From: Bradymonas sediminis
GTDB lineage: Bacteria > Myxococcota_A > Bradymonadia > Bradymonadales > Bradymonadaceae
DNA: 64,000 nucleotides
NCBI RefSeq assembly: GCF_003258315.1
Contig: NZ_CP030032.1
Coordinates: 1,340,001-1,404,000 of the forward strand
Direction: 5' to 3'
In this document: positions 4,665 through 61,475 of the stretch, in pieces
Layout of the letters: each line of letters opens with the position of its first letter
Numbering within the stretch: position 1 is the first letter of the stretch
Program-made: the position numbers and the translations under genes
The notes under the pieces: generated by a model
Databases searched by the model: none
What the model was told of the DNA's origin: nothing
The model's input: the letters and a program-made list of their open reading frames with translations, nothing else

Positions 4665-6152
4665 ATGAAACGATCGGCTCTGAAGCGAAAATATATCTCA
4701 TTGCTCGGGGCTTTGCTGCTCGTGGCATCTGCGGCCGGCTGTGATTATAGCGGGGCCGACGATAAGCTGGCGGATGCAGGGCCGGACGCTGGTGTGTTGG
4801 ATACTGGCGGTCGCTCCGACGCAGCGGGTAGCGATGCGACCGGCAGCGATGCCACCGGCAGTGATGCGACGGGCAGTGATGCGACGGGCAGCGACGCGAC
4901 GGGCAGCGACGCGACGGGCAGCGATGCGACGGACGTGGTTGATGACGCGGATATAAGCGACACGGGGGATGCTAGAGATGCCGACACGGCGGACACGACG
5001 CCGGACCCGGTGGAAGACCCCTGCGAGAACCCCATCGCGCCGGGGCCGATTCACGATATAGATATTTCGGCGACGGTCTTTGTGGGGCCGGTCCCCGTGT
5101 CGGGCGCTCAGCGGCCAGTCGAAGTCGATAGCTACGCGGCGTATCAGAGCCAATTTGGCGTTGGTTCCACCGCCGGTCCGCCCGCGGACGCCGATGCGAT
5201 GGCCTGGTCAGTCTATCTCTACTTCGAGAACGGCGGCGAGCGGGCCTTTGTCGCACCAACGGCCTCGGATGTTCCGACATCAGTGGAGCTTGAGCGGCTC
5301 GCCGGGATTGGTGAACCCGCGATGATCGTGGTGCCGGGGCTCTCCGGGATCCAGGACGCCGGCGAGCGAGCGTTGGCCTATGGGCGCATGGGAACCTTTA
5401 TTCAGGGAGCGCAGGCCACTGATTTGTTGTGGATCAGCGACCTACCCGCAGGGTTAAGCGTCGAGGAGATTACCACCACACAGAGCTTCAACGCGCCGGT
5501 GACCATTCATAGTAACCGCGTCGCGCTATACCACCCGTGGCTTAAAGTCAGCACCGCTGGGGCGACGCCCCTGGAGGTCGCACCATCCGGAGCGGTCGCC
5601 GGGGTCATCGCCCGCCTGGGGCTCGAACGGGGTATTTGGACGGCGCCGGCGGGGCCAACCGCGACTTTTCAGAGCATCGATGGCTTCGCTCAGGCCCTCG
5701 ATAATAGCGAGATTAGTGATCTTCTATCTTTGAATATCAACGCGCTGCGCGTTTTGTCGGGCGCCCCGGTTATCTGGGGCGCGCGCACCCTTGAGCGCGA
5801 CGATAACCATATGAAATATGTGTCAGTGCGCCGGTTCGCCACTCTTATCGACGCGAGCATGCGCGCCGGGGTCCGCGATATTTTTTGGCGCGTCAACGAC
5901 GCGAGTCTCCGCCAGGAGTTGGAGGAGCGCATGGATGACTATATGAGCGGTCTCTTTCGAAGCGGCGCCTTTGAGGGGGCGAGCGCCGGGCAATCCTATT
6001 TTGTCCAGGACTTCGTCAACTCAACATCGATGCCCGATATTCAGGCGGGCAAGCTCACCTTCGAGTATGGCTTTGCGCCGATTCGGCCGGCTGAGTTTCA
6101 TCTGGGGCGCTTCGAGCGCACCGTTGGCTCCTGCTTGTCCGACAGCCCATGA
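4665..6152 (+). CDS. Lipoprotein carrying a contractile-tail sheath domain
   Basis: The protein (495 aa) begins with a lipoprotein signal (LLGALLLVASAAGC, lipid Cys 26, Asp at +2). A low-complexity linker with seven GSDAT repeats follows (residues 55-89), then many Asp/Ala/Thr residues to about 110. The remaining about 380 residues read as a phage-type tail sheath protein. SATVFVGPVPV matches the start of the sheath core. VYLYFENGGERAFVAP matches the usual 'FFENGG-RAYVVR' element, and RVALYHPWLKV with SGAVAGVIARLGLERGIWTAPAG matches the 'YPW-V…PPSG-VAGV-AR-D-ERGVWKAPA' block. NALRVLSGAPVIWGARTL (359-376), KYVSVRRF (from 384) and GASAGQSYFVQ (about 439) match the C-terminal sheath domain. Known sheath proteins are cytoplasmic and lack signal peptides; lipidation is the odd feature. 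No tube, baseplate, spike or ClpV-like gene lies nearby. The function on the cell surface or in the periplasm is unknown. Confidence 0.85.
   Translation: MKRSALKRKYISLLGALLLVASAAGCDYSGADDKLADAGPDAGVLDTGGRSDAAGSDATGSDATGSDATGSDATGSDATGSDATGSDATDVVDDADISDTGDARDADTADTTPDPVEDPCENPIAPGPIHDIDISATVFVGPVPVSGAQRPVEVDSYAAYQSQFGVGSTAGPPADADAMAWSVYLYFENGGERAFVAPTASDVPTSVELERLAGIGEPAMIVVPGLSGIQDAGERALAYGRMGTFIQGAQATDLLWISDLPAGLSVEEITTTQSFNAPVTIHSNRVALYHPWLKVSTAGATPLEVAPSGAVAGVIARLGLERGIWTAPAGPTATFQSIDGFAQALDNSEISDLLSLNINALRVLSGAPVIWGARTLERDDNHMKYVSVRRFATLIDASMRAGVRDIFWRVNDASLRQELEERMDDYMSGLFRSGAFEGASAGQSYFVQDFVNSTSMPDIQAGKLTFEYGFAPIRPAEFHLGRFERTVGSCLSDSP
4827..4931 (+). repeat. 15-bp coding tandem repeat (GSDAT x7)
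   Basis: Seven in-frame 15-bp units encode Gly-Ser-Asp-Ala-Thr inside the linker of the sheath-domain lipoprotein. Third positions vary (gat/gac, gcg/gcc, agc/agt), so the array is older than a fresh slippage event yet still prone to length change. It acts as a flexible acidic spacer between the lipid anchor and the folded domain. Confidence 0.9.
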
Positions 6153-6155
6153 ACG

Positions 6156-6467
6156 ATGCGCTTTGAACTTCAACATCCCGACGCCCCGCACCTTCGGGCT
6201 GAGTACGGCTGCGACGAAGGTGCGGGGTTCTTCTTCGCCATCTATGCCCGGCAAGAGATCTACCGCGGCTATGACATAAGCCGCGAGGATTCGCGGGCTC
6301 TTGAGCGGGTCCTAAACGCGCTGGTCGCGCATGGTTTTGTGACGCGGACCAGCGTGGAGGAGGCCGAGTATTGGCTGCAATATTATTGGGTCGACGAGAT
6401 TGAGAACCCGGCGGCGCGGCGTTCGGCTCGGATCATTGTGAACCTGATGCGCGCGTTGAAGAGTTGA
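6156..6467 (+). CDS. Small hypothetical protein
   Basis: A 103-residue protein begins four bases after the stop of the sheath-domain lipoprotein, so the two are probably cotranscribed. The composition is that of a real soluble protein (aromatic-rich, e.g. EYWLQYYWVDEI, with amphipathic helices such as SREDSRALERVLNALVAHGF). It has no signal peptide, membrane segment or recognised domain. There is no strong ribosome site, so translation may depend on termination of the upstream gene. A 13-bp perfect hairpin followed by TTCTTCTT lies inside its 5' end (6184-6235), which could terminate or attenuate readthrough. I do not recognise the family. Confidence 0.6.
   Translation: MRFELQHPDAPHLRAEYGCDEGAGFFFAIYARQEIYRGYDISREDSRALERVLNALVAHGFVTRTSVEEAEYWLQYYWVDEIENPAARRSARIIVNLMRALKS
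6184..6235 (+). promoter_or_regulatory. Terminator-like hairpin inside the start of the small ORF
   Basis: Bases 6184-6196 (CCCCGCACCTTCG) pair perfectly with 6215-6227 around an 18-nt loop, and the stem is followed by TTCTTCTTC. The strength of the stem suggests an attenuator or terminator for the sheath-lipoprotein transcript. It lies 32 bp downstream of that gene's stop and within codons 10-25 of the following small gene. Confidence 0.5.
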
Positions 6468-6491: not shown

Positions 6492-7142
6492 CTAAAAGAG
6501 TTCGTTCAAGGGTGTGCGGGAGTTCTTCGAGGGGCGGTCGGGGTCGCGAAAATGGTCGAATTTTAGGGGGAGGCGCACGCCTCGGGCGGAGATGCTGATT
6601 TTTAGCAGAGGCGTGCCGATGCGGAGCGCGGGCTCATCGCCTTTGCTGAAGCGGTCGTTGGAGACGATGATGCATTTTTTATTCTTGCGCGCGTATTGTA
6701 GCAGCACATCGTCGGCGGATTTGCCGTGGGTTTCGAAGAAGCGCGGCTTTCGGCGCTCGACCTCGGCGATGAACTTAGGCTGGTCGGTTTTATTGAGTTT
6801 ATAGCGAAGGTTGGCGTCGCAGAAGACCTTGATTTTGGCGTTCTTAAAGCGATGCTCCAATACACGCAGGACCTCCATCAAATAGTCTAAGCGCACCTTT
6901 GTCGTGCCACCTTTAGCGTCGCGATGCGCGAAGTTGCTGCCGTCGACCAGCAGCGTCCACCCCGCGGCGTTGAGGCGGGCTTTGGACGCGCGACGCTTGG
7001 GGCGAGCGGGTTTTTGGGGCCTGCCGGGTCGCCATTGCAAAAGTCTAAAGACGACGCGGCCGATGATCGCGAGCAGCAGGGCGATGAGGATGATCTCGAG
7101 CAATGAGAGCGGCATCGCAGGCATATATTGGGTCAGGTCCAT
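6492..7142 (-). CDS. Membrane-anchored NYN/PIN-like ribonuclease (Zc3h12a type)
   Basis: The 216-residue protein has one N-terminal membrane helix (about 12-34), a basic linker (RPQKPARPKRRASKAR) and a NYN-domain nuclease fold. The acidic residues expected for metal binding are visible: Asp67 in LLVDGSNFAH, Asp109 in VFCDANLRY, Asp144-Asp145 in KSADDVLLQYA and Asp163 in IIVSNDRFSKGDE. The SADD…VSNDRF pattern is that of the Zc3h12a-like (regnase) RNase branch. I infer an RNase tethered to the cytoplasmic face of the inner membrane, acting on single-stranded or structured RNA; the substrate is unknown. It converges with the small ORF at 6156-6467, leaving 24 bp between stops. The start at 7142 gives the membrane helix; no better start is apparent. 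Confidence 0.85.
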   Translation of the reverse strand: MDLTQYMPAMPLSLLEIILIALLLAIIGRVVFRLLQWRPGRPQKPARPKRRASKARLNAAGWTLLVDGSNFAHRDAKGGTTKVRLDYLMEVLRVLEHRFKNAKIKVFCDANLRYKLNKTDQPKFIAEVERRKPRFFETHGKSADDVLLQYARKNKKCIIVSNDRFSKGDEPALRIGTPLLKISISARGVRLPLKFDHFRDPDRPSKNSRTPLNELF

Positions 7143-8357: not shown

Positions 8358-9866
8358 CTAGAGCGAGCGTACGAATTCGAGCAGCGCCCGGCGCCCGTCA
8401 TCGTTGAGCGCCTCGACATAGCGGCGCGCCGGGTCGGCTTCGCCGCCGTGCCATAAGATCGCCTCTTCCAAGTTTTGGGCGCGCCCATCGTGCAGGAATC
8501 GCGCGTTTGGGTTGAGCGATTCGACTAGTCCCAATCCCCACAAAGGCGCGGTTCTCCACTCCCGCGCGCCGGCGTTTCCTTCGCCGGCGGGGTCGCTTAA
8601 ACCTTCGCCCATATCGTGGAGCAGCAGATCGGTGAACGGGTGCAAGATCTGCTCGGAGAGCAGCGGTCGGTCCGGCAGCGCGCGCGTGACCAACTTCGGG
8701 CGGTGGCAGCCGGTGCAACCTGCGGCGTCAAAGTGGCGCGCCCCGGCTTCGAGCGTCGCTCTGCCCGCGTGGCGCCTTACCGCCGGAACCCCGATATAGC
8801 GCTGGTATTCAACCAGGGCGGCGAGCCCCTGTTCGTCGACTTCGGGGGAGCCACCGCTTGGGCTTTGCAGGCAATCGTGCTGAGACGCGCTGCAATTTTC
8901 GGCCATGACTTCGGGTGAGGTGATGCCCATATCCTGGGCGAGCGCCATGGCGCTTTGTCCGCGCAGCGTGGGCTGCAGTGCTTTCCAACCGAAGCGGCCG
9001 AGGCGGCCGTCGTCGAGGATATTCGGGCGCCCCGAGATGCCGTCGCCGTCGGCGTCCTCGGGGTCGGCGGCCTCCAGGATGGTCGCGTCTGCGACGAGAT
9101 CCAATAAACCCAGACCGACCAGATGCGGCGACGCACGTCCGAGCGCGCGCGTGTCGGGGTGCAACGCGCCGTAGCTTGGGTGTGGCTCGATGGAGAAGCG
9201 GGGCGCGCCATGGTTGTTGTCGCTGCTGGTGGCGGTCGGGTACCAAGACACGTGCCCCTCGGCGGCAACACCGGCGATGCTTCGAGGCTGGAATTGCGGG
9301 CCGAAGACGGGATCGGGGAGTCTTCCCTGGTCGGTTTCGCGGACAAGACGAATCAACAACCCTGGGTGGACCTGGCCGTCGGGGCCAAGCGTCGCCGGGC
9401 GCCCCGACGATGGGTGGCATCCCGCGCAGGAAACCTCGTTAAAGTGAGGACCGAGTCCGTCGATGACGGGCCGCGAACTGGGCGCAGGCTCCCATTCGGC
9501 CACGAATAATTCGCGCCCCTGTGAGAATCGTAGTGTCTGCTCGAGCCCCAGGGTGTCCGCCAGCTCCATGAATCGCCACTGAGTCGAGTCGCTGGTTAAT
9601 GCGCCGCCGGTCTGCTCCACCGGTGGCAGTAGATGTTCGACCGATACCGGCGGCGTCGAGGTGTCGGAGCTATCCGAGCTCTCCCGAGTATCGCTGGCGT
9701 CGCCAGCATCCGGACGCGAAGTTGCGTCTGCGAGGTCGCTGGTTGTGTCAAAGTTGGCGTCCGTGGTCGACGCTGGCGCCGGCGCGTCCGAGCAACCTGC
9801 CCAGAGCGCCGCCGCGACCGCCGCCCACGCCAACCGCTGAAGGTGGTTGAGGTGGGTAGTGCTCAT
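8358..9866 (-). CDS. Di-haem oxidoreductase (DUF1111/DHOR) lipoprotein
   Basis: The 502-residue protein starts at the ATG at 9866, which overlaps the stop of the upstream RCC1 gene as ATGA (translational coupling). The lipobox ALWAGC puts lipid Cys at 25, followed by an Asp/Ser/Thr-rich linker. The body is the 'thiol oxidoreductase'/di-haem family related to MauG and cytochrome c peroxidases. The two covalent haem sites are CAGCH at about 146-150 and CTGCH at about 384-388. Conserved family phrases include FNEVSCAGCHPSSGRP, GRFGWKALQPTLRGQSA and FLHDGRAQNLEEAILWHGGEA near the C-terminus. The DHOR family is often iron-regulated and found beside imelysin-like lipoproteins. Here the operon has a Fur-like box (11839-11853), consistent with that, but the partner is an RCC1 protein. 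The substrate is unknown. Confidence 0.92.
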   Translation of the reverse strand: MSTTHLNHLQRLAWAAVAAALWAGCSDAPAPASTTDANFDTTSDLADATSRPDAGDASDTRESSDSSDTSTPPVSVEHLLPPVEQTGGALTSDSTQWRFMELADTLGLEQTLRFSQGRELFVAEWEPAPSSRPVIDGLGPHFNEVSCAGCHPSSGRPATLGPDGQVHPGLLIRLVRETDQGRLPDPVFGPQFQPRSIAGVAAEGHVSWYPTATSSDNNHGAPRFSIEPHPSYGALHPDTRALGRASPHLVGLGLLDLVADATILEAADPEDADGDGISGRPNILDDGRLGRFGWKALQPTLRGQSAMALAQDMGITSPEVMAENCSASQHDCLQSPSGGSPEVDEQGLAALVEYQRYIGVPAVRRHAGRATLEAGARHFDAAGCTGCHRPKLVTRALPDRPLLSEQILHPFTDLLLHDMGEGLSDPAGEGNAGAREWRTAPLWGLGLVESLNPNARFLHDGRAQNLEEAILWHGGEADPARRYVEALNDDGRRALLEFVRSL

Positions 9867-11749
9867 TCTGCGAACTCCACGAGCACTGGGATTCGGTAGC
9901 TCCACCGGTCAATCGAACTTTCGCCGGCGCCCAGTGAACCCTGAAAACTCCAGCCCCAGGCAAAGACGCGGCCATCGGCCCGAAGCGCCACTGAGTGCAG
10001 CGCGCCGACGGTGACGTCGACCAGGTTCTCGACGCCGAAGACAGGTTCGACCGGGCCTGTGAGGTCTTCTTCGGAGGGGATGCCCAGGTTGCCAAACCCG
10101 TTTTGCCCCCAGCCATAGACGCGGGCGTTGTCGCCGTACACGAAGCTCTGATTGGCCCCGGCGAGCACGCCGGTGACGGTCATATTCGGCGACAGCAGCG
10201 TTGGCTCAAGCACGTCGTCCTCGAAGCCGCCGATGCCCTCGGGGCCGACCTGGGCCGAGCGGTTGAGCCCCCATCCATAGAGCTGCCCGTCGGCGTTGAG
10301 CGCGAGCGCGTGGTCCTTGCCTGCGGCAATCTCGACGATGTCCGCCAGCGCGTCGATCTTGGTCGGTTGGCTGTGTGGGTCCCGGTCGCTGGTTCCCAGA
10401 CCGAGGTTCCCATCGGCGTTGTCGCCCCACGCGAATACTTCGCCGTCTTTTGTCAGGGCATAGGAAGCAGAGGATGAAGCGGTCATCGCGATGACCTCTT
10501 CGAGACCAATGACCTCGACGGGGGTGTCGCTCGTGGTGGTGGTGCCGTCGCCGAGTTGACCGTCGGCGTTGTCGCCGCAGGCGTAGGGTTTGCCCTGGTC
10601 GGTCAGCAATAGCGTGTGATCGTAGCCGCGCGCGATCGCGACGACGGTGTGCTCGAAGTCGACCTTTTCGGGGGCGTAGCGATGGGTCTCATCGAGGTCG
10701 CCGTCATTGGCCTCGCCCAGGCATAGCTGGCCGTCGGCGTTGTCCCCCCAAGCGTAGACCTCGCCGGCGGCGTTGAGCGCGAACGAGCTATTTTGGCTAA
10801 ACACGATGGAGATGACTTCGCCCGGGACCTCGATATGGTGTGCGCTGACCGGATGCGCGGGATCGGTGTCGCCGAGCGATGAGTCATACCCGAGGCCAAC
10901 CTGACCGCGGTTATTTCGGCCCCAGGCGTAGACTTCGGAGTCGAGCAGCACACCGCTATGCGCGCCGCCAGCGGCGGTCTGAGCGCCGAAATACAGCGCG
11001 TGCGATAACTCGGCCTGATTGCCCGCAGCGTCTGTCGCGGCGACCGTGATTGCGTTCGGTCCCGGCGCCAGGTCGACCATCGCGCTGAAGCGTCCATCCG
11101 CGCTGAGCGTAGCGGGCGCGGGGGTGTCCCCAACGCTCAGCGTCACGGACGCGACGCCAAGGTTGTCGGCTGCTTGGCCGGTGATCATGACCCGGCGAGC
11201 GAGCACTGAGCGGGCGTAATGCGGCGATAGTCCGCTTAAGGTTGGGGCCTCGGTGTCCTCGGCGCGGGTGATTGAGATGCGCGCTTCGCCGCGCTCACCA
11301 TTGTCGGCGATGACCTCAACCGAGATGTCGTTGGCGCCGACCAGAAGCGGGATAATCGCTTCGAGCTGATAGCCACTTGTCGTGCTCGTCAGGCTGACGT
11401 CTTCGACCGGGCTGTCGTTGCGCGACACATGGTGCTCGATGAGCGCGCCGTCGAACTCGATAGCCGCCTTCAGGGGGAACTCTTGGGCGTAGAGCATCGT
11501 TTCCTCAGGGGCGTCGATCGTGACCACCGGGGCATCCGCGGCGTCTTCGAGCGCGTCCGGCGCCTCCGTTGCGTCCGATGCGTCTTCGCGCGCGGCCGGG
11601 GGCTCCGCGGTGTCATGGCTTCCCGCATCATGCGCCTCGTGGTGTGCATCGTATTTGTCGGCATCAGCATCGCCGCCACAGCCTACCAATGACGCGCTCA
11701 GTGCCGCGACAAAGATCCATCGAAATACGTTCTTGTTCCATCTCATCAT
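9863..11749 (-). CDS. Seven-repeat RCC1 propeller lipoprotein
   Basis: The 628-residue lipoprotein starts at the ATG at 11749, chosen for the GGAGAG seven bases upstream. The lipobox is SASLVGC, with Cys 24. A Glu/Asp/Ala-rich linker runs to about residue 95. Next come two beta-sandwich-like segments, the second (DTEAPTLSGLSP…AATDAAGNQAELS) being of the bacterial Ig or cadherin-like 'DxxGN' type. Then seven RCC1/BNR-type repeats run to the end, recognisable by V-Y/F-A-W-G-x-N-x-x-G-x-L-G, for example EVYAWGDNADGQLCLG. Seven repeats would close one seven-bladed propeller. It overlaps the di-haem gene by four bases and sits just downstream of a palindromic Fur-like box, so I infer an iron-responsive surface or periplasmic binding partner of the haem protein. 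Bacterial RCC1 proteins have no single known role. Confidence 0.9.
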   Translation of the reverse strand: MMRWNKNVFRWIFVAALSASLVGCGGDADADKYDAHHEAHDAGSHDTAEPPAAREDASDATEAPDALEDAADAPVVTIDAPEETMLYAQEFPLKAAIEFDGALIEHHVSRNDSPVEDVSLTSTTSGYQLEAIIPLLVGANDISVEVIADNGERGEARISITRAEDTEAPTLSGLSPHYARSVLARRVMITGQAADNLGVASVTLSVGDTPAPATLSADGRFSAMVDLAPGPNAITVAATDAAGNQAELSHALYFGAQTAAGGAHSGVLLDSEVYAWGRNNRGQVGLGYDSSLGDTDPAHPVSAHHIEVPGEVISIVFSQNSSFALNAAGEVYAWGDNADGQLCLGEANDGDLDETHRYAPEKVDFEHTVVAIARGYDHTLLLTDQGKPYACGDNADGQLGDGTTTTSDTPVEVIGLEEVIAMTASSSASYALTKDGEVFAWGDNADGNLGLGTSDRDPHSQPTKIDALADIVEIAAGKDHALALNADGQLYGWGLNRSAQVGPEGIGGFEDDVLEPTLLSPNMTVTGVLAGANQSFVYGDNARVYGWGQNGFGNLGIPSEEDLTGPVEPVFGVENLVDVTVGALHSVALRADGRVFAWGWSFQGSLGAGESSIDRWSYRIPVLVEFAE

Positions 11750-11808
11750 CGACTCTCCGTGGGTCGTTATTGTGTTCGAATACATTACGCAAAACTTGCG
11801 TGGGGCGG

Positions 11809-12902: not shown

Positions 12903-15236
12903 TCAGTCCGCCGCCGGTGCTTCGGCAGCCATGTCGAAATAGACGGTGCTTCCCTGCAGTTCGGCGTGAGTAAAATACGGGCCGTCGTGGGCTTGGCCGT
13001 TCACATTCACGCCGACGACATAGGGGGTCTCCGGGCCTGCGCCAGGGGCCTCAATGCGCAGGGTTTTACCGTCGCCCAGGTCGACTTCGATCTCGGGGAA
13101 GAGCGGCGAGCCGAGCATATAGGTGTCGTGGCCGGCGACCGGCGAGAAGCCGAGAGCGCTGAAGATATACCAGGCCGACAGGGTGCCGCCGTCGTCATTG
13201 CCGACCAGCCCGTCCGGGCCGCTGCCGTAGGCGGTGGATTGGATGAGGCGCACCCATTTGCCGACCTCGGCGGGGCGGTCGGTGAAGTTGAATAGGTAGG
13301 GCGCGCCGATATCGTGCTCGTTGCCATGCCAATATTTGCCATCGGGGAGCAGCGGTAGATAGTCGTCGGTGTTGATGCCTGCGTCGTCGAAGAATTTGTG
13401 GAGTTGCTCGTAGAGCGCGCTTGGGCCGCCGAAGGCCTCGCTGAGCTGGGTGGGGTGCCAGATCGGGTAGAATCGCCAATGCCAGGCGTTGCCCTCGGTG
13501 TAGTGGTCTTCGCTAAAAGCGCCGTGGCTCATCATCACGACGAAGCTGCCATCGGCGTTTCGCGGGGTCATGAATTTCGTCGTCTCCTCAAATGTATTCT
13601 TCCAATTCTCCGAACGCTCACGCAGCGCGCTCGCCTCGGCGCGGCCGAGGTGATCGGCTAAATTGGCGAGCGCCCAATCGTTCCATGCGTATTCCAGGGT
13701 GCGGGAGACGGATTGGCTAAATTCGTCGTCGGGCACGTAGCCAAGCTCGAGGTAGCGAGCGACCGCGCGCCGGCCGGTGAAGATCGAGCCGGGGGGCGTT
13801 TGTTGGGTCGCTGTGATGAGTAGGGCGTCGAATGCCTCCTGGTAGTCGACGCCGTCGATTCCCTTGAGCGCGCTTTCGGCGAAGAGTTGGTCGGCGGGCG
13901 TCCCCAGCATGCTATTGGTATAGGTCTGGAGCGCCGGCCAGCGCGGGATAAAGCCGGTGGCGCGCTTCATCGCGAGCAATGAGTTCAGGCTATCGCGCTG
14001 CAGGTCCGGGTCGATGAGCGTGAGCAATGGGTGGAGGGTGCGGAACGTGTCCCACAGCGACAGATCTGAATAATATTTGGAGCCGTTGACCTGGTGAATC
14101 TGGTCGTCCATGCCGCGGTAGCGCCCGTCCGCCCCGTCGAGTCGGGTCGGCATGCGCCACACATTATAGAGGGCGGTGTAGAAGATGCGCAGGTCGTCTT
14201 CGGCGCCGCCGCGCACGCGCACGCGCCCGAGCTTGTCGAGCCAGGCGGCTTTGGCCTCTTCGCGCACGGCTTCAAAGGTCTTGGCGTCGAGCTCTTCGCT
14301 TCGGTGCAGCCGCGCCTGGTCGAGGTCGACGAAGGAGAGGCCGACGCGCAGCTCAACCTGCTCGGCGTCGCTGAAGTCGAGCACCGCGCCGCCTTCGACT
14401 CCCTGAGCGCTCGACGCGCCAGCGTTCACGCCGCTGTCATCCCAGGTGGAGACCGCGGTGGGGGCGGAGTCGCTGGTCGCCGAAAAGTAGAGGGTGAACG
14501 GGCCGCTTCGGGTCGCGAAATCACCGCCAAAGACCACATGACCCTCGATGGTCTGGCCGTCGACCGCCATCGTCACCTCGGTTTCGGCCGAAGTAACGAT
14601 GCTCGAGGCCGGGTTGAAGAGCAGGGTGATGCCGCCGGCGTCGCTGCGATAGCGATGAAAGCCCGCGCGAAGTGAGGCGGTAAGTTCGACGGTGACGCCG
14701 GCGTCGGGGAGGTGAACTGAATAATAGCCCGGAGCCGCCTGCTCGCTGTCTTTGTCGAGCGCGGTATATTGCGCCCAGGGCTTGGCAGCGTCGACGGTCG
14801 CGACCGGCAAAACGCTCAGGTTTCCAAGCCCCGGTGCGCCGGTGCCCACCAGGTGAAGATGGGTAAATCCGCGCACCTCCGGGTCATCATAATGATAGCC
14901 GCTGAAGTGGGATTGGGGGTAGTATTTGCCATCTTTCGAGGTGTCTGGGCCGAGCTTTACCAGTCCGTTGGGGACCTGGGCGGTCGGGGTGAGCGCGGCA
15001 TAGCCGAAGCCCAATCCTCCCGTGCCGATAAATGGGTCGACCAACGAAAAGGCCCGCTCGGCGTCGACCCACTGCGGCTTTGCGTCGAGCGTATCAGCGA
15101 CATCAACGGCGTCGGCGGTCGTGTCCGGTGAGGCGTCCGATATATCGGCCGCGGGCGTTGAGTTTTCGTCGCTGGCGCATCCCGCGAATACCGCGAGCGC
15201 GAAGAGGCTAAAAAGGAAGATGGTCTTTGGGTTCAT
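12903..15236 (-). CDS. GH92 family alpha-mannosidase lipoprotein
   Basis: The 777-residue protein is a calcium-dependent exo-alpha-mannosidase of glycoside hydrolase family 92, which trims alpha-mannosyl linkages of glycoproteins or yeast-type glycans. The signal ends in ALAVFAGC (Cys 20), followed by an Asp/Ala-rich linker. The N-terminal beta-sandwich begins VDPFIGTGG and includes GFTHLHLVGTGAPGLG. The catalytic alpha/alpha-barrel includes the general-acid region YTEGNAWHWRFYPIWH, GNEHDIGAPYLFNF, and the aspartate-rich GNDDGGTLSAWYIFSALGF, where the base residues lie. It is full length for the family. No SusC/SusD pair or other glycan gene is nearby, so it acts as a solitary surface enzyme, perhaps scavenging prey or environmental glycans (inference). 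Confidence 0.95.
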   Translation of the reverse strand: MNPKTIFLFSLFALAVFAGCASDENSTPAADISDASPDTTADAVDVADTLDAKPQWVDAERAFSLVDPFIGTGGLGFGYAALTPTAQVPNGLVKLGPDTSKDGKYYPQSHFSGYHYDDPEVRGFTHLHLVGTGAPGLGNLSVLPVATVDAAKPWAQYTALDKDSEQAAPGYYSVHLPDAGVTVELTASLRAGFHRYRSDAGGITLLFNPASSIVTSAETEVTMAVDGQTIEGHVVFGGDFATRSGPFTLYFSATSDSAPTAVSTWDDSGVNAGASSAQGVEGGAVLDFSDAEQVELRVGLSFVDLDQARLHRSEELDAKTFEAVREEAKAAWLDKLGRVRVRGGAEDDLRIFYTALYNVWRMPTRLDGADGRYRGMDDQIHQVNGSKYYSDLSLWDTFRTLHPLLTLIDPDLQRDSLNSLLAMKRATGFIPRWPALQTYTNSMLGTPADQLFAESALKGIDGVDYQEAFDALLITATQQTPPGSIFTGRRAVARYLELGYVPDDEFSQSVSRTLEYAWNDWALANLADHLGRAEASALRERSENWKNTFEETTKFMTPRNADGSFVVMMSHGAFSEDHYTEGNAWHWRFYPIWHPTQLSEAFGGPSALYEQLHKFFDDAGINTDDYLPLLPDGKYWHGNEHDIGAPYLFNFTDRPAEVGKWVRLIQSTAYGSGPDGLVGNDDGGTLSAWYIFSALGFSPVAGHDTYMLGSPLFPEIEVDLGDGKTLRIEAPGAGPETPYVVGVNVNGQAHDGPYFTHAELQGSTVYFDMAAEAPAAD

Positions 15237-28490: not shown

Positions 28491-29879
28491 CTACGGCTCC
28501 ATCGCGATATAACCTCCCCACGAATGGACCGCATAACCCATCACCCGGGCGCGTCGATACCCGGCGGTGAGCGTGTCAATTACCGCGAACGTGGCGTTAT
28601 AGCCCTCTTCGTCAAAGGTCATGAAGTGATACTCGGTGGGCAGCGGGTTGACCTCCACGCCGAAGACCAGCGGGGTATTTGTCCACAGGGCGAGGTTTTG
28701 CTCGACGCCGCCGGTCATCGCTTCGCCGTCGTGCCAGCCAAAGAAGAAGGAGGGCTGGTCGTTCTGGTTGGGGGTGTTGTCGTAATAATTCATCAGCGCG
28801 ATATAATCGACGGGGCTGTCGGGCGCGTTCAAAAAACTGAGCAGGGGTTTGTTGTAGTAGGCGATGTCTGCGCCGAGATCGAGGGATAGGGTCATATAAT
28901 GGCCGGTCTCTTGTGCGTAGGCGTCGAGGGTGGCCCGACACGAGGTCATGATGTCCATCCAGCGCTGGGTCCACGCGGCGTTGTAGCCCCCGGGCAGGCG
29001 GTCTTGCCACCAGTGGCCGTCCCAGCGGGTGCCGCCGACGGTATGCGGTTCGATGTCGAAGTGGACGCCGGCGAGGCGCTCGGCGTTGAGCGAGGTCGTC
29101 TTATTGAAGGTGACCACGTCGCGGCAGACCTGCTTGGGCCACTGGGCGTTGGCGTCACTCGCCAGCCAGATGGCCTGGCCGTCGAGGTATTCGACCGCGA
29201 TGCCGGCGGCGTGCGCGCGGGCGTTAAACGCGCGCAGATGCGCTTGCTCGCCCGGGGTCAGCAGCGGGTCGTAGGTGATCGGGCGCATCGCGTCGAAGAT
29301 ATTATCGCGCGAATAGGTGCGGGCCTCAAAATAGAAGCGATTGATCGCATGCGCGCTCGAGCCGTGCGGCGCGCTGGCGAAATTGATGAGGTTTTCGGCC
29401 ATATTCCAGCGGTTGGTCGTGAAGGCGTGGGCGGTCTCGGCGTCGGCCCAGACCCACAGGGCGCTGGTGTCGTGGCGGCTCAAAAACTCTGGCTTTTCTG
29501 GGGGAAGTGGCGCGCTGGTATCGGGCGTATGCGCGGTGTCCGAGGTATCTGAAGTGGCGGCGTCCGCGGTCGCGTCGGCGGCGGTGTCGGGCGGCGAGTG
29601 GGTGTCTGCGGAGGCGTCATCTTTGGGCGAGGTGTCGCGCCCCGAATCCTGGGCGACGGTCGAATCCGGCGAGTCAAGCGCGTCGTGTGGGGGCGAGATG
29701 CCCTGAGCATCGCGCGCGCTCGCGTCCAGGTCCCCCGGGCCCGCGTCATGCCCGCGACCTGTGTCGGCTTCAAGGGTGGTGGAGCGATTCTTACCCGTAT
29801 CGCTCAAGCAACTCGTCAATAGAATGCAGCTTACCAGAAGAGGCGCGGAGACGAGTCTCCAGCCAATTATTAGCTTCAC
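28491..29879 (-). CDS. TIM-barrel glycosidase-like lipoprotein
   Basis: The GTG at 29879 is the start, with AGGAG eight bases upstream. The 462-residue protein has a lipobox ILLTSC (Cys 24) and a very long Asp/Ser/Thr/Ala linker (about 30-125). The folded part begins around ALWVWADAE. It shows strand motifs of a (beta/alpha)8 barrel: HAINRFYFEAR, AGIAVEYLDG, GVHFDIEPH (Asp275 and Glu277, the DxE pattern seen at the active site of GH18-like enzymes), YMTLSLDLGAD, DYIALMNYYDN, LVFGVEVNP and ARVMGYAVHSWGGY. The order of strands and the acid pair support a glycoside hydrolase-type fold, but I cannot assign a family or a sugar. It is presumably exposed at the cell surface or in the periplasm. Confidence 0.7.
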   Translation of the reverse strand: MKLIIGWRLVSAPLLVSCILLTSCLSDTGKNRSTTLEADTGRGHDAGPGDLDASARDAQGISPPHDALDSPDSTVAQDSGRDTSPKDDASADTHSPPDTAADATADAATSDTSDTAHTPDTSAPLPPEKPEFLSRHDTSALWVWADAETAHAFTTNRWNMAENLINFASAPHGSSAHAINRFYFEARTYSRDNIFDAMRPITYDPLLTPGEQAHLRAFNARAHAAGIAVEYLDGQAIWLASDANAQWPKQVCRDVVTFNKTTSLNAERLAGVHFDIEPHTVGGTRWDGHWWQDRLPGGYNAAWTQRWMDIMTSCRATLDAYAQETGHYMTLSLDLGADIAYYNKPLLSFLNAPDSPVDYIALMNYYDNTPNQNDQPSFFFGWHDGEAMTGGVEQNLALWTNTPLVFGVEVNPLPTEYHFMTFDEEGYNATFAVIDTLTAGYRRARVMGYAVHSWGGYIAMEP

Positions 29880-59645: not shown

Positions 59646-61475
59646 TCAGGGATCGAGGCGCGTGATGCGCACGTCGTCGGGCCGGGCGATCGGCGAGTGC
59701 AGGCGCAGGTATTGGGCGAACATCTCGACCTCTGCGGGGCCCTGCACGCGGTTGGTGCCCTCGGAAAGAACCGCCAAAAAGTCGCCGCCCTCTGCCATAT
59801 AGCTGTTGACGGTGACGCGATAATTCGCGCTCGGGTCGATGGTCACGCCGTTGAGCTTGATGCTGGCCGGGTCCACGTGGTTTCCGACCGTGGTGTTGAG
59901 CGTATAGGAGTAGGTGAATCCGCTGGAAACCTGGACGATCGAGTATTCGGTGGCGCTGAATTGCTGCTCAAGAAGTTGGTGAATCTGGGCGCCGGTCAGG
60001 GTCATGGTCACCAGGGTGTTGCCGAAGGGCAGCACGTCGAAGACCTGCGAGTAGGTGATCTCACCGGGATTCTCGGGGGTCGCGCCGGGGCTGGTCAGGT
60101 TGGCGCGGATGCCGCCGGCGTTGGCCATCGCGATCTGGGCGCTGTCCTCTCCGGTCTCGCTGGTGGCCCACAGGTGGCTGTCGGCGATGAGGCGGCCCAG
60201 GGGGGATTCGCCGGCGTCATTATAGTCGCGTCGGATGCTCTTGTTGATCTCGGCGACCACCGGGTCGGCTTCGGCGGCCAGCGTGGCGAGGTCGGTGACG
60301 AAGGTAGTGAGGTCCGTGTTCGGGCTGAGGGTGTCGTTTCGCACGACGTGGTTGACCGCGGTCTTCTCGGTGATGTCGCCGCTGGCCGAGTCGATGACCA
60401 GGTCAACTTCGGTCAGCACGCGGCCGTAGGAGAACGCGCTGGTGACCAGGCGGCCTTCGATATCGCAGATATAGGTGCGGTGGGTGTGTCCGCTGATGAA
60501 GACGTCGACGGCGTCGCTCGAGTTGCGCACGATGTCGACGATCGGTCCCTGCACGTCGCCGCAGTCGCTGACGCTGGTCTGCGGAGTGGTCGCGTGGCCG
60601 CCCTCGTGGATGAGCACGACGATGGCCTCAATTCCCTGGGCCTGAAGCTTGGCGACCTCGCGGTCGATTGTCTCGACTTCGTCGTCGAAGGTCAGCCCGG
60701 CGGTGGCGCTGGGGCGCGTGATGCGGCCGGTGCCTTCGAGGGTGAGGCCGATGAATCCGACCTTCACGCCCTCATAGGTTTTGACCACGGTCGACGGCAG
60801 CAGGGTGTCACCGCTCTCGGTCATGACGTTGGCGGCGAGGATCGGGAACTCAGCCCCGTCGAAGGACTCGGTCCAATCGCATCCATCGGCGTGGCAGCCG
60901 CCATTTTGTAGGCGAAGAAGCTCTTCCCAGCCGGCGTCGAATTCGTGGTTGCCCACCGCGGTGACCTCCAGGCCGAGCATATTCAGCGCCACGATCGTCG
61001 GTTCGTCGTGGTACATCGCCGACATCATCGGCGTCGCGCCCACGATATCGCCGGCCGACACCAGGATGCTATTGTCGGCGTCCTGGGTAAGCTCGTCGGC
61101 CCAGGCCTTCAGGTAGGCGATGCCGCCGGCGTCATGGGTCTCCGTGCCGTCAGTAATGCGGCCGGCAGGTGCTTCCAGGCGGCCGTGAAGGTCGTTGAAC
61201 GCGATGACTTTTAGGGAGATGGGATCGCCGGTCTGCTGCGTGGTGTCCGCTTCGGCGTCCGAATCGGCGTCTGCACCCGCATCGGGCTCGGTCGCGTCGG
61301 CGTCGCCATCCGTGGAATCCGGCGTCTCGGTGACGTCCGAGGTCGTCGCGTCCGCTTGAACGCCCGTGTCCTTCTCGGAGTTGTCCGAGCCCGAGTCCGA
61401 GCACGCGCCGATGAAGGCCAGTGACGCGATGAGAAAAATTAGATGGTGTCGCGAAAAGATCGATGAGTACTTCAT
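59646..61475 (-). CDS. 5'-nucleotidase/metallophosphoesterase lipoprotein (UshA-like)
   Basis: The 609-residue lipoprotein has a signal ending SLAFIGAC (Cys 25) and an Asp/Ala/Thr-rich linker to about 88. The N-terminal metallophosphoesterase domain carries the metal ligands FNDLHGR, VSAGDIVGATP and AVGNHEFDAGWEELL, plus HEGGH and FISGHTHR further on. The C-terminal 5'-nucleotidase domain includes MANAGGIRANL and SYMAEGGDFLAVL. This family hydrolyses nucleoside 5'-phosphates or UDP-sugars outside the cytoplasm, for phosphate and nucleoside scavenging. The extra Cys pair GGCHADGCDW near the metal site is found in a sub-branch. It is probably anchored in the outer membrane; single gene with its own terminator. 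Confidence 0.95.
   Translation of the reverse strand: MKYSSIFSRHHLIFLIASLAFIGACSDSGSDNSEKDTGVQADATTSDVTETPDSTDGDADATEPDAGADADSDAEADTTQQTGDPISLKVIAFNDLHGRLEAPAGRITDGTETHDAGGIAYLKAWADELTQDADNSILVSAGDIVGATPMMSAMYHDEPTIVALNMLGLEVTAVGNHEFDAGWEELLRLQNGGCHADGCDWTESFDGAEFPILAANVMTESGDTLLPSTVVKTYEGVKVGFIGLTLEGTGRITRPSATAGLTFDDEVETIDREVAKLQAQGIEAIVVLIHEGGHATTPQTSVSDCGDVQGPIVDIVRNSSDAVDVFISGHTHRTYICDIEGRLVTSAFSYGRVLTEVDLVIDSASGDITEKTAVNHVVRNDTLSPNTDLTTFVTDLATLAAEADPVVAEINKSIRRDYNDAGESPLGRLIADSHLWATSETGEDSAQIAMANAGGIRANLTSPGATPENPGEITYSQVFDVLPFGNTLVTMTLTGAQIHQLLEQQFSATEYSIVQVSSGFTYSYTLNTTVGNHVDPASIKLNGVTIDPSANYRVTVNSYMAEGGDFLAVLSEGTNRVQGPAEVEMFAQYLRLHSPIARPDDVRITRLDP

Follow-up and report, generated by a model that had tools for sequence, protein, structure and literature searches.

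Organization of the Locus

We analyzed a window of 64,000 nucleotides, positions 1340001-1404000 of the Bradymonas sediminis genome (G000), which is complete in a single contig of 5,045,683 bases. An ORF with an ATG start at 4665-6152 of this window (plus strand) encodes a protein of 495 aa that we describe, from Pfam, PHROG, and PDB matches, an AlphaFold2 model, and fold searches, as an exported sheath-fold lipoprotein. All of its features are on the plus strand. The signal peptide (MKRSALKRKYISLLGALLLVASAAGC; 4665-4742) ends in the lipobox AAGC, with Cys26 (codon 4740-4742) the predicted lipidated residue, and is followed by an acidic linker of Asp, Ala, Gly, Ser, and Thr with GSDAT repeats (residues 27-117; 4743-5015), whose repeat units differ at synonymous positions. 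Where the canonical N-arm strand PGVYVEE would sit, the alignment and the start of the VIA structural match place a DPCENPIA segment (5016-5039) containing an invariant Cys120 (codon 5022-5024). The sheath body (residues about 128-478; 5046-6098), delimited by Pfam, the model, and the fold search, has no cysteine, and the C-arm (EFHLGRFERTVGSCLSDSP; 6093-6149) ends in an invariant Cys490 (codon 6132-6134).

A 103-aa ORF (6156-6467, plus strand) begins 4 bases past the sheath gene; it was considered as a partner and rejected, since no homologue turned up in the class (57 genomes) and searches of Pfam, NCBIfam, and PHROG gave no match. Beyond it lies a gene for an NYN-type ribonuclease (6492-7142, minus strand; PF11977, barely over the cut-off) with an N-terminal hydrophobic helix.

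Seven further ORFs of the window passed a simple lipobox scan, several of them with Asp-rich linkers. Long Asp-rich linkers follow the lipobox in the candidate lipoproteins at 9863-11785, 12903-15236, 59646-61475, and 28491-29879 (all minus strand), of which the first carries RCC1 repeats and the second a GH92 domain. The RCC1-repeat and GH92 proteins have the same arrangement of lipobox, long Asp/Ala-rich linker, and folded domain as the product of 4665-6152, whereas the passenger in the latter is a phage-tail sheath. Because several lipoproteins of the window have such linkers, this seems to be a layout common among lipoproteins of this genome, here fitted with a sheath domain.

Sheath Homology and Fold

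The product matches two Pfam families, PF04984 (E 3.9e-10; 40.3 bits against a cut-off of 31.4) and PF17482 (E 3.4e-7; 30.7 bits against 26.9), as well as PHROG tail-sheath families (down to E 4.3e-33) and, in a sequence search, sheaths of contractile injection systems (CIS) in the PDB (down to E 9e-29). Judged by sequence, its homology to sheaths is far above chance. We modeled residues 118-495 with AlphaFold2 from an alignment with 63 sheaths from related loci, obtaining a sheath domain with pLDDT 87.9 and pTM 0.88 and with both termini at low confidence. The top match among solved structures is the CIS sheath of Streptomyces coelicolor (9gts; Foldseek E 1.7e-27), to which VIA aligns model residues 6-371 with Z 40.1 and rmsd 2.0 over 344 residues. 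All of the 50 chains listed per fold search either are sheaths or have titles that refer to phage tails. The model and the fold searches leave no doubt about the sheath fold, and the preliminary description, which had read this gene as a sheath-like lipoprotein, is borne out by comparison with known sheath structures (Z 40.1 to 9gts) as well as by the family matches and by the lipobox-bearing orthologues described below.

The lipoprotein is a variant of a known fold, not a new fold. CIS and contractile tail sheaths (9gts, 8bky, Pvc2, Afp2, R-pyocin) share with it a subtilisin-like domain, a C-terminal domain, and a C-arm strand. Unlike these, it has a signal peptide with a lipobox, an acidic stalk, and a terminal pair of cysteines, and it is without the PGVYVEE N-arm, without cysteines in the body, and without CIS partner genes found in its genome. 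In a phylogenetic tree, the lipoprotein and its two orthologues form a trio (support 100/96) nested, with modest support, in a branch of long CIS- and phage-type sheaths.

Export Signal and Orthologues

Orthologues are found only in two other genera of the same family, at L036:7669-9048 (minus strand) in genome G013 and at L037:6970-8361 (plus strand) in G008, in searches of the class (57 genomes) and of a phylum sample (379 genomes). A family profile run on the phylum sample scores these orthologues at 660-704 bits and the next sheath at 196 bits. The three proteins are 40-42% identical in the core, and all conserve the n-region, the h-region, and the lipobox cysteine; the lipoboxes of the two orthologues (FTAC and TAAC) are slightly off-consensus, and the acidic linkers that follow them are rich in Asp and unrelated in sequence. 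The gene is patchy and accessory, occurring in 3 of the 21 genomes of the family and missing from two near-complete congeners of G013. Neighboring genes differ around the three copies; a conserved operon was ruled out, with no common neighbors seen across the three genomes.

We screened 185 sheath ORFs whose 5′ end lay inside their locus, a set that still counts some genes more than once through repeat cuts. The strongest hydrophobic N-terminal signals belong to the three lipoproteins and to a protein of another Myxococcota genome (G331), and all four lack the N-arm. The next-ranked export-like hit (L057) has an N-arm, and the signal it carries precedes its likely start codon. A true start downstream in 4665-6152 is unlikely because both orthologues carry lipoboxes and acidic linkers of their own, and because a canonical N-arm is not recovered from any start in the first ~117 residues. 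The preliminary description had noted the lipoprotein signal and the GSDAT linker, which are indeed present and have counterparts in both orthologues, and had named the possibility that the first 26 residues are untranslated; the orthologues, with unlike signal peptides and with lipoboxes and linkers of their own, disfavor that possibility.

We conclude, from sequence conservation, that the product is exported and that its export is conserved in three genera. Lipidation of Cys26 by Lgt and LspA is predicted. Asp at position +2 of lipoproteins is an inner-membrane retention signal in E. coli, and by this rule the Asp of the B. sediminis protein would point to retention in the inner membrane, while the orthologues have Ser and Pro at this position.

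Exchange of the N-arm and Redistribution of Cysteines

In solved sheaths, the N terminus of each subunit pairs in parallel with the C terminus of its ring neighbor, and the paired termini extend a sheet in the ring beneath (PMC10457771). The lipoproteins keep one side of this handshake: the EF-hydrophobic strand of the C-arm is retained, with a different tail that ends in Cys490, and the N-arm motif PG[VI]YVEE is replaced by DPC....P in all three. The PG motif is present in 168 of the 185 sheath ORFs screened, and several of the 17 without it are long frames with a true start at a more internal position. Of the two handshake arms, therefore, the C-terminal one remains and the N-terminal one is lost in favor of the DPC segment.

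We compared cysteines in an alignment of the three lipoproteins with 51 other sheaths, taking residues 139-478 as the body. The lipoproteins have no body cysteine (0/0/0), against a median of 6 in the 51 others, only two of which have none; the canonical cysteines at 246 (40/51) and 449 (43/51) are lost. Conversely, C120 and C490, which bracket the body, are present in 3/3 lipoproteins and in 0/51 other sheaths. Loss of body thiols together with gain of a bracketing pair is a pattern that an oxidizing compartment would favor, and the exchange thus provides separate evidence for export. Because the AlphaFold2 model is a single chain with low-confidence termini, and its alignment left out the two orthologues, it does not separate an intrachain from an interchain disulfide.

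Disulfides between sheath subunits exist in phage Milano, where cysteines are likewise placed at sheath termini and intersubunit regions and serve as a structural device, with three intersubunit bonds inside a working tail sheath (PMC10811340). The sheath lipoprotein differs in having one conserved terminal cysteine pair, and a putative disulfide, in a membrane-anchored protein.

Search for Partner Genes

No match to the tube (PF06841), Baseplate_J (PF04865), or spike (PF04717) families was found anywhere in the complete B. sediminis genome, nor was a second PF04984 sheath; the preliminary observation that no tube or baseplate gene lies in the window thus extends to the whole genome for the tube, baseplate-J, and spike families tested. 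The G013 genome likewise has no tube or spike match, and G008 has a tube, a spike, and a canonical sheath together on one contig (C707). The tube search did find matches in G008 and in a further genome, G010. One Baseplate_J match was seen in G013 (C9:14197-14994, minus strand), a genome without tube or spike match. G010, of the same family, carries a locus resembling an extracellular CIS (eCIS), which encodes a pair of long sheaths and a pair of tubes (C1:4435000-4454000; L038), one of the sheaths being on a long branch (L042).

Of the features expected of a functional contractile sheath, the lipoprotein has the C-terminal arm strand; it is without the N-arm strand and without a match to the tube, Baseplate_J, or spike families in its genome, and it carries an export signal. 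It is not a contractile sheath.

A Separately Anchored Sheath in Another Myxococcota Genome

The G331 protein (453 aa; L087:8610-9995, minus strand, also seen in L072) has a Sec signal followed directly by the sheath domain, from TVPTAVAGFVG onward, with no N-arm. It resembles the lipoproteins in its export signal, its full sheath domain, and its missing N-arm, and differs in keeping body cysteines, in having no terminal cysteine pair and no lipobox, and in bearing a hydrophobic, Arg-rich, sorting-like C-terminal tail. Its gene sits in a housekeeping cluster, with pnp on one side and dut on the other and with infB, rbfA, and rpsO in the same run (named by eye from the sequences), and no CIS genes were seen among the flanking ORFs read. 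The G331 genome gave no match to the tube family and one to the spike family, on a contig other than that of the sheath. No close relative of this sheath was found among the 91 genomes of the class of G331. The free tree sets it apart from the lipoprotein trio. A tree uniting the four proteins scores higher, however (p-AU 0.62), so that a common clade is neither shown nor rejected.

Several other candidates proved ordinary. The tandem sheath pairs of G275, G029, and G051 are canonical and were ruled out as exported sheaths. On viral contigs, none of the related sheath ORFs whose 5′ end lay inside the locus was conspicuous for an export signal. Matches in phage and plasmid records look like ordinary tail sheaths; the one record examined whole, from Cupriavidus, is canonical.

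Interpretation

We favor, at a probability of about 0.6, a reading in which a CIS or phage sheath subunit has been domesticated as a stand-alone envelope lipoprotein, free of any machine, whose sheath domain is displayed for binding or scaffolding. A sheath subunit from a contractile injection system or phage tail would have been captured by the lineage. Sequence and model support that the protein keeps the complete fold and carries a Sec/SPII signal and a flexible acidic stalk of ~90 residues. They likewise support that the N-terminal handshake strand and the internal cysteines typical of its relatives are lost, that the C-arm is retained, and that a terminal cysteine pair is gained. Lgt and LspA would lipidate Cys26, the body would fold in the oxidizing periplasm, and a C120-C490 disulfide would fasten what is left of the N-arm to the C-arm. 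Because one arm is missing and every subunit is tied to the membrane, the protein would not be expected to build a contractile tube, and for the same reasons it is probably displayed at the cell envelope as a monomer or small assembly on its flexible stalk, in contact with other cells or matrix. Some sheath-like assembly could persist, given the conserved C-terminal domain and C-arm.

In an alternative to which we give roughly one chance in five, the C120-C490 bond forms between neighbors and links the membrane-bound subunits into rings, sheets, or short filaments. It fits the clasping of arms between ring neighbors in solved sheaths (PMC10457771), the position of C120 at the N-arm strand and of C490 at the end of the retained C-arm, and the intersubunit disulfides of phage Milano (PMC10811340). 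However, the N-arm strand is gone, its replacement (DPCENPIAP) is rich in Pro, tube growth would be restricted by the lipid anchor that each subunit carries, and no partner genes were found. A broader version, equally doubtful or slightly more so, proposes a family of machine-free anchored sheaths in which a disulfide replaces the arm handshake and the resulting ring or filament mediates cell-cell contact. An anchored sheath that binds a CIS sheath, baseplate, or cap, either tethering the cell's own eCIS or blocking a foreign one, is less likely than a displayed subunit and in our view improbable. The C-arm and C-terminal domain, used for sheath-sheath binding, are kept, the patchy distribution would suit a role in conflict, and in G008, one of the three hosts, tube and spike genes share a contig with a canonical sheath; yet the B. 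sediminis genome lacks matches to tube, baseplate-J, spike, and second sheath, and G013 lacks matches to tube and spike, so that docking of an own eCIS cannot be general, and a foreign sheath, once assembled, would have most of its joints occupied already.

Very improbable is an ordinary cytoplasmic sheath, or a decaying prophage remnant, with a fused or misread N terminus. Sheath genes are common in the phages and eCIS of the phylum, but three orthologues across genera, 40-42% identical in the core, all have the lipobox, acidic linker, and cysteine pair; moreover, no phage gene was found among the flanking ORFs scanned with Pfam, and no start in the linker restores an N-arm. The part of the preliminary description that saw an exported, lipid-anchored sheath holds, given the fold and the orthologues, and domestication follows from the finding of no CIS partner genes. 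Its suggestion of a sheath polymer or filament is a less likely one, unsupported by proteins that all lack the N-arm strand and have a terminal cysteine pair, and less likely still is a decoy or docking element, for a gene carried by two genomes without tube or spike matches and one with both.

Implications

Sheath proteins are described as cytoplasmic components of contractile machines, and full-text searches (preprints and most subscription journals outside their scope) listed no title or abstract reporting a lipidated or exported sheath. The sheath lipoprotein seems to be an injection-machine part reused on the cell envelope. Bradymonadales prey on bacteria, in one study on Algoriphagus (PMC7460792). 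One Algoriphagus species makes an eCIS (7adz, among the fold-search matches). Predation on a genus with an eCIS-making species makes a cell-contact role possible and worth testing, and is not itself evidence for that role. A sheath has here been rebuilt for extracytoplasmic life in at least one lineage of the predator-rich Myxococcota, and perhaps twice. These proteins offer a natural setting in which to ask how a sheath subunit functions when tube and baseplate are absent, and whether a disulfide can replace the handshake joint.
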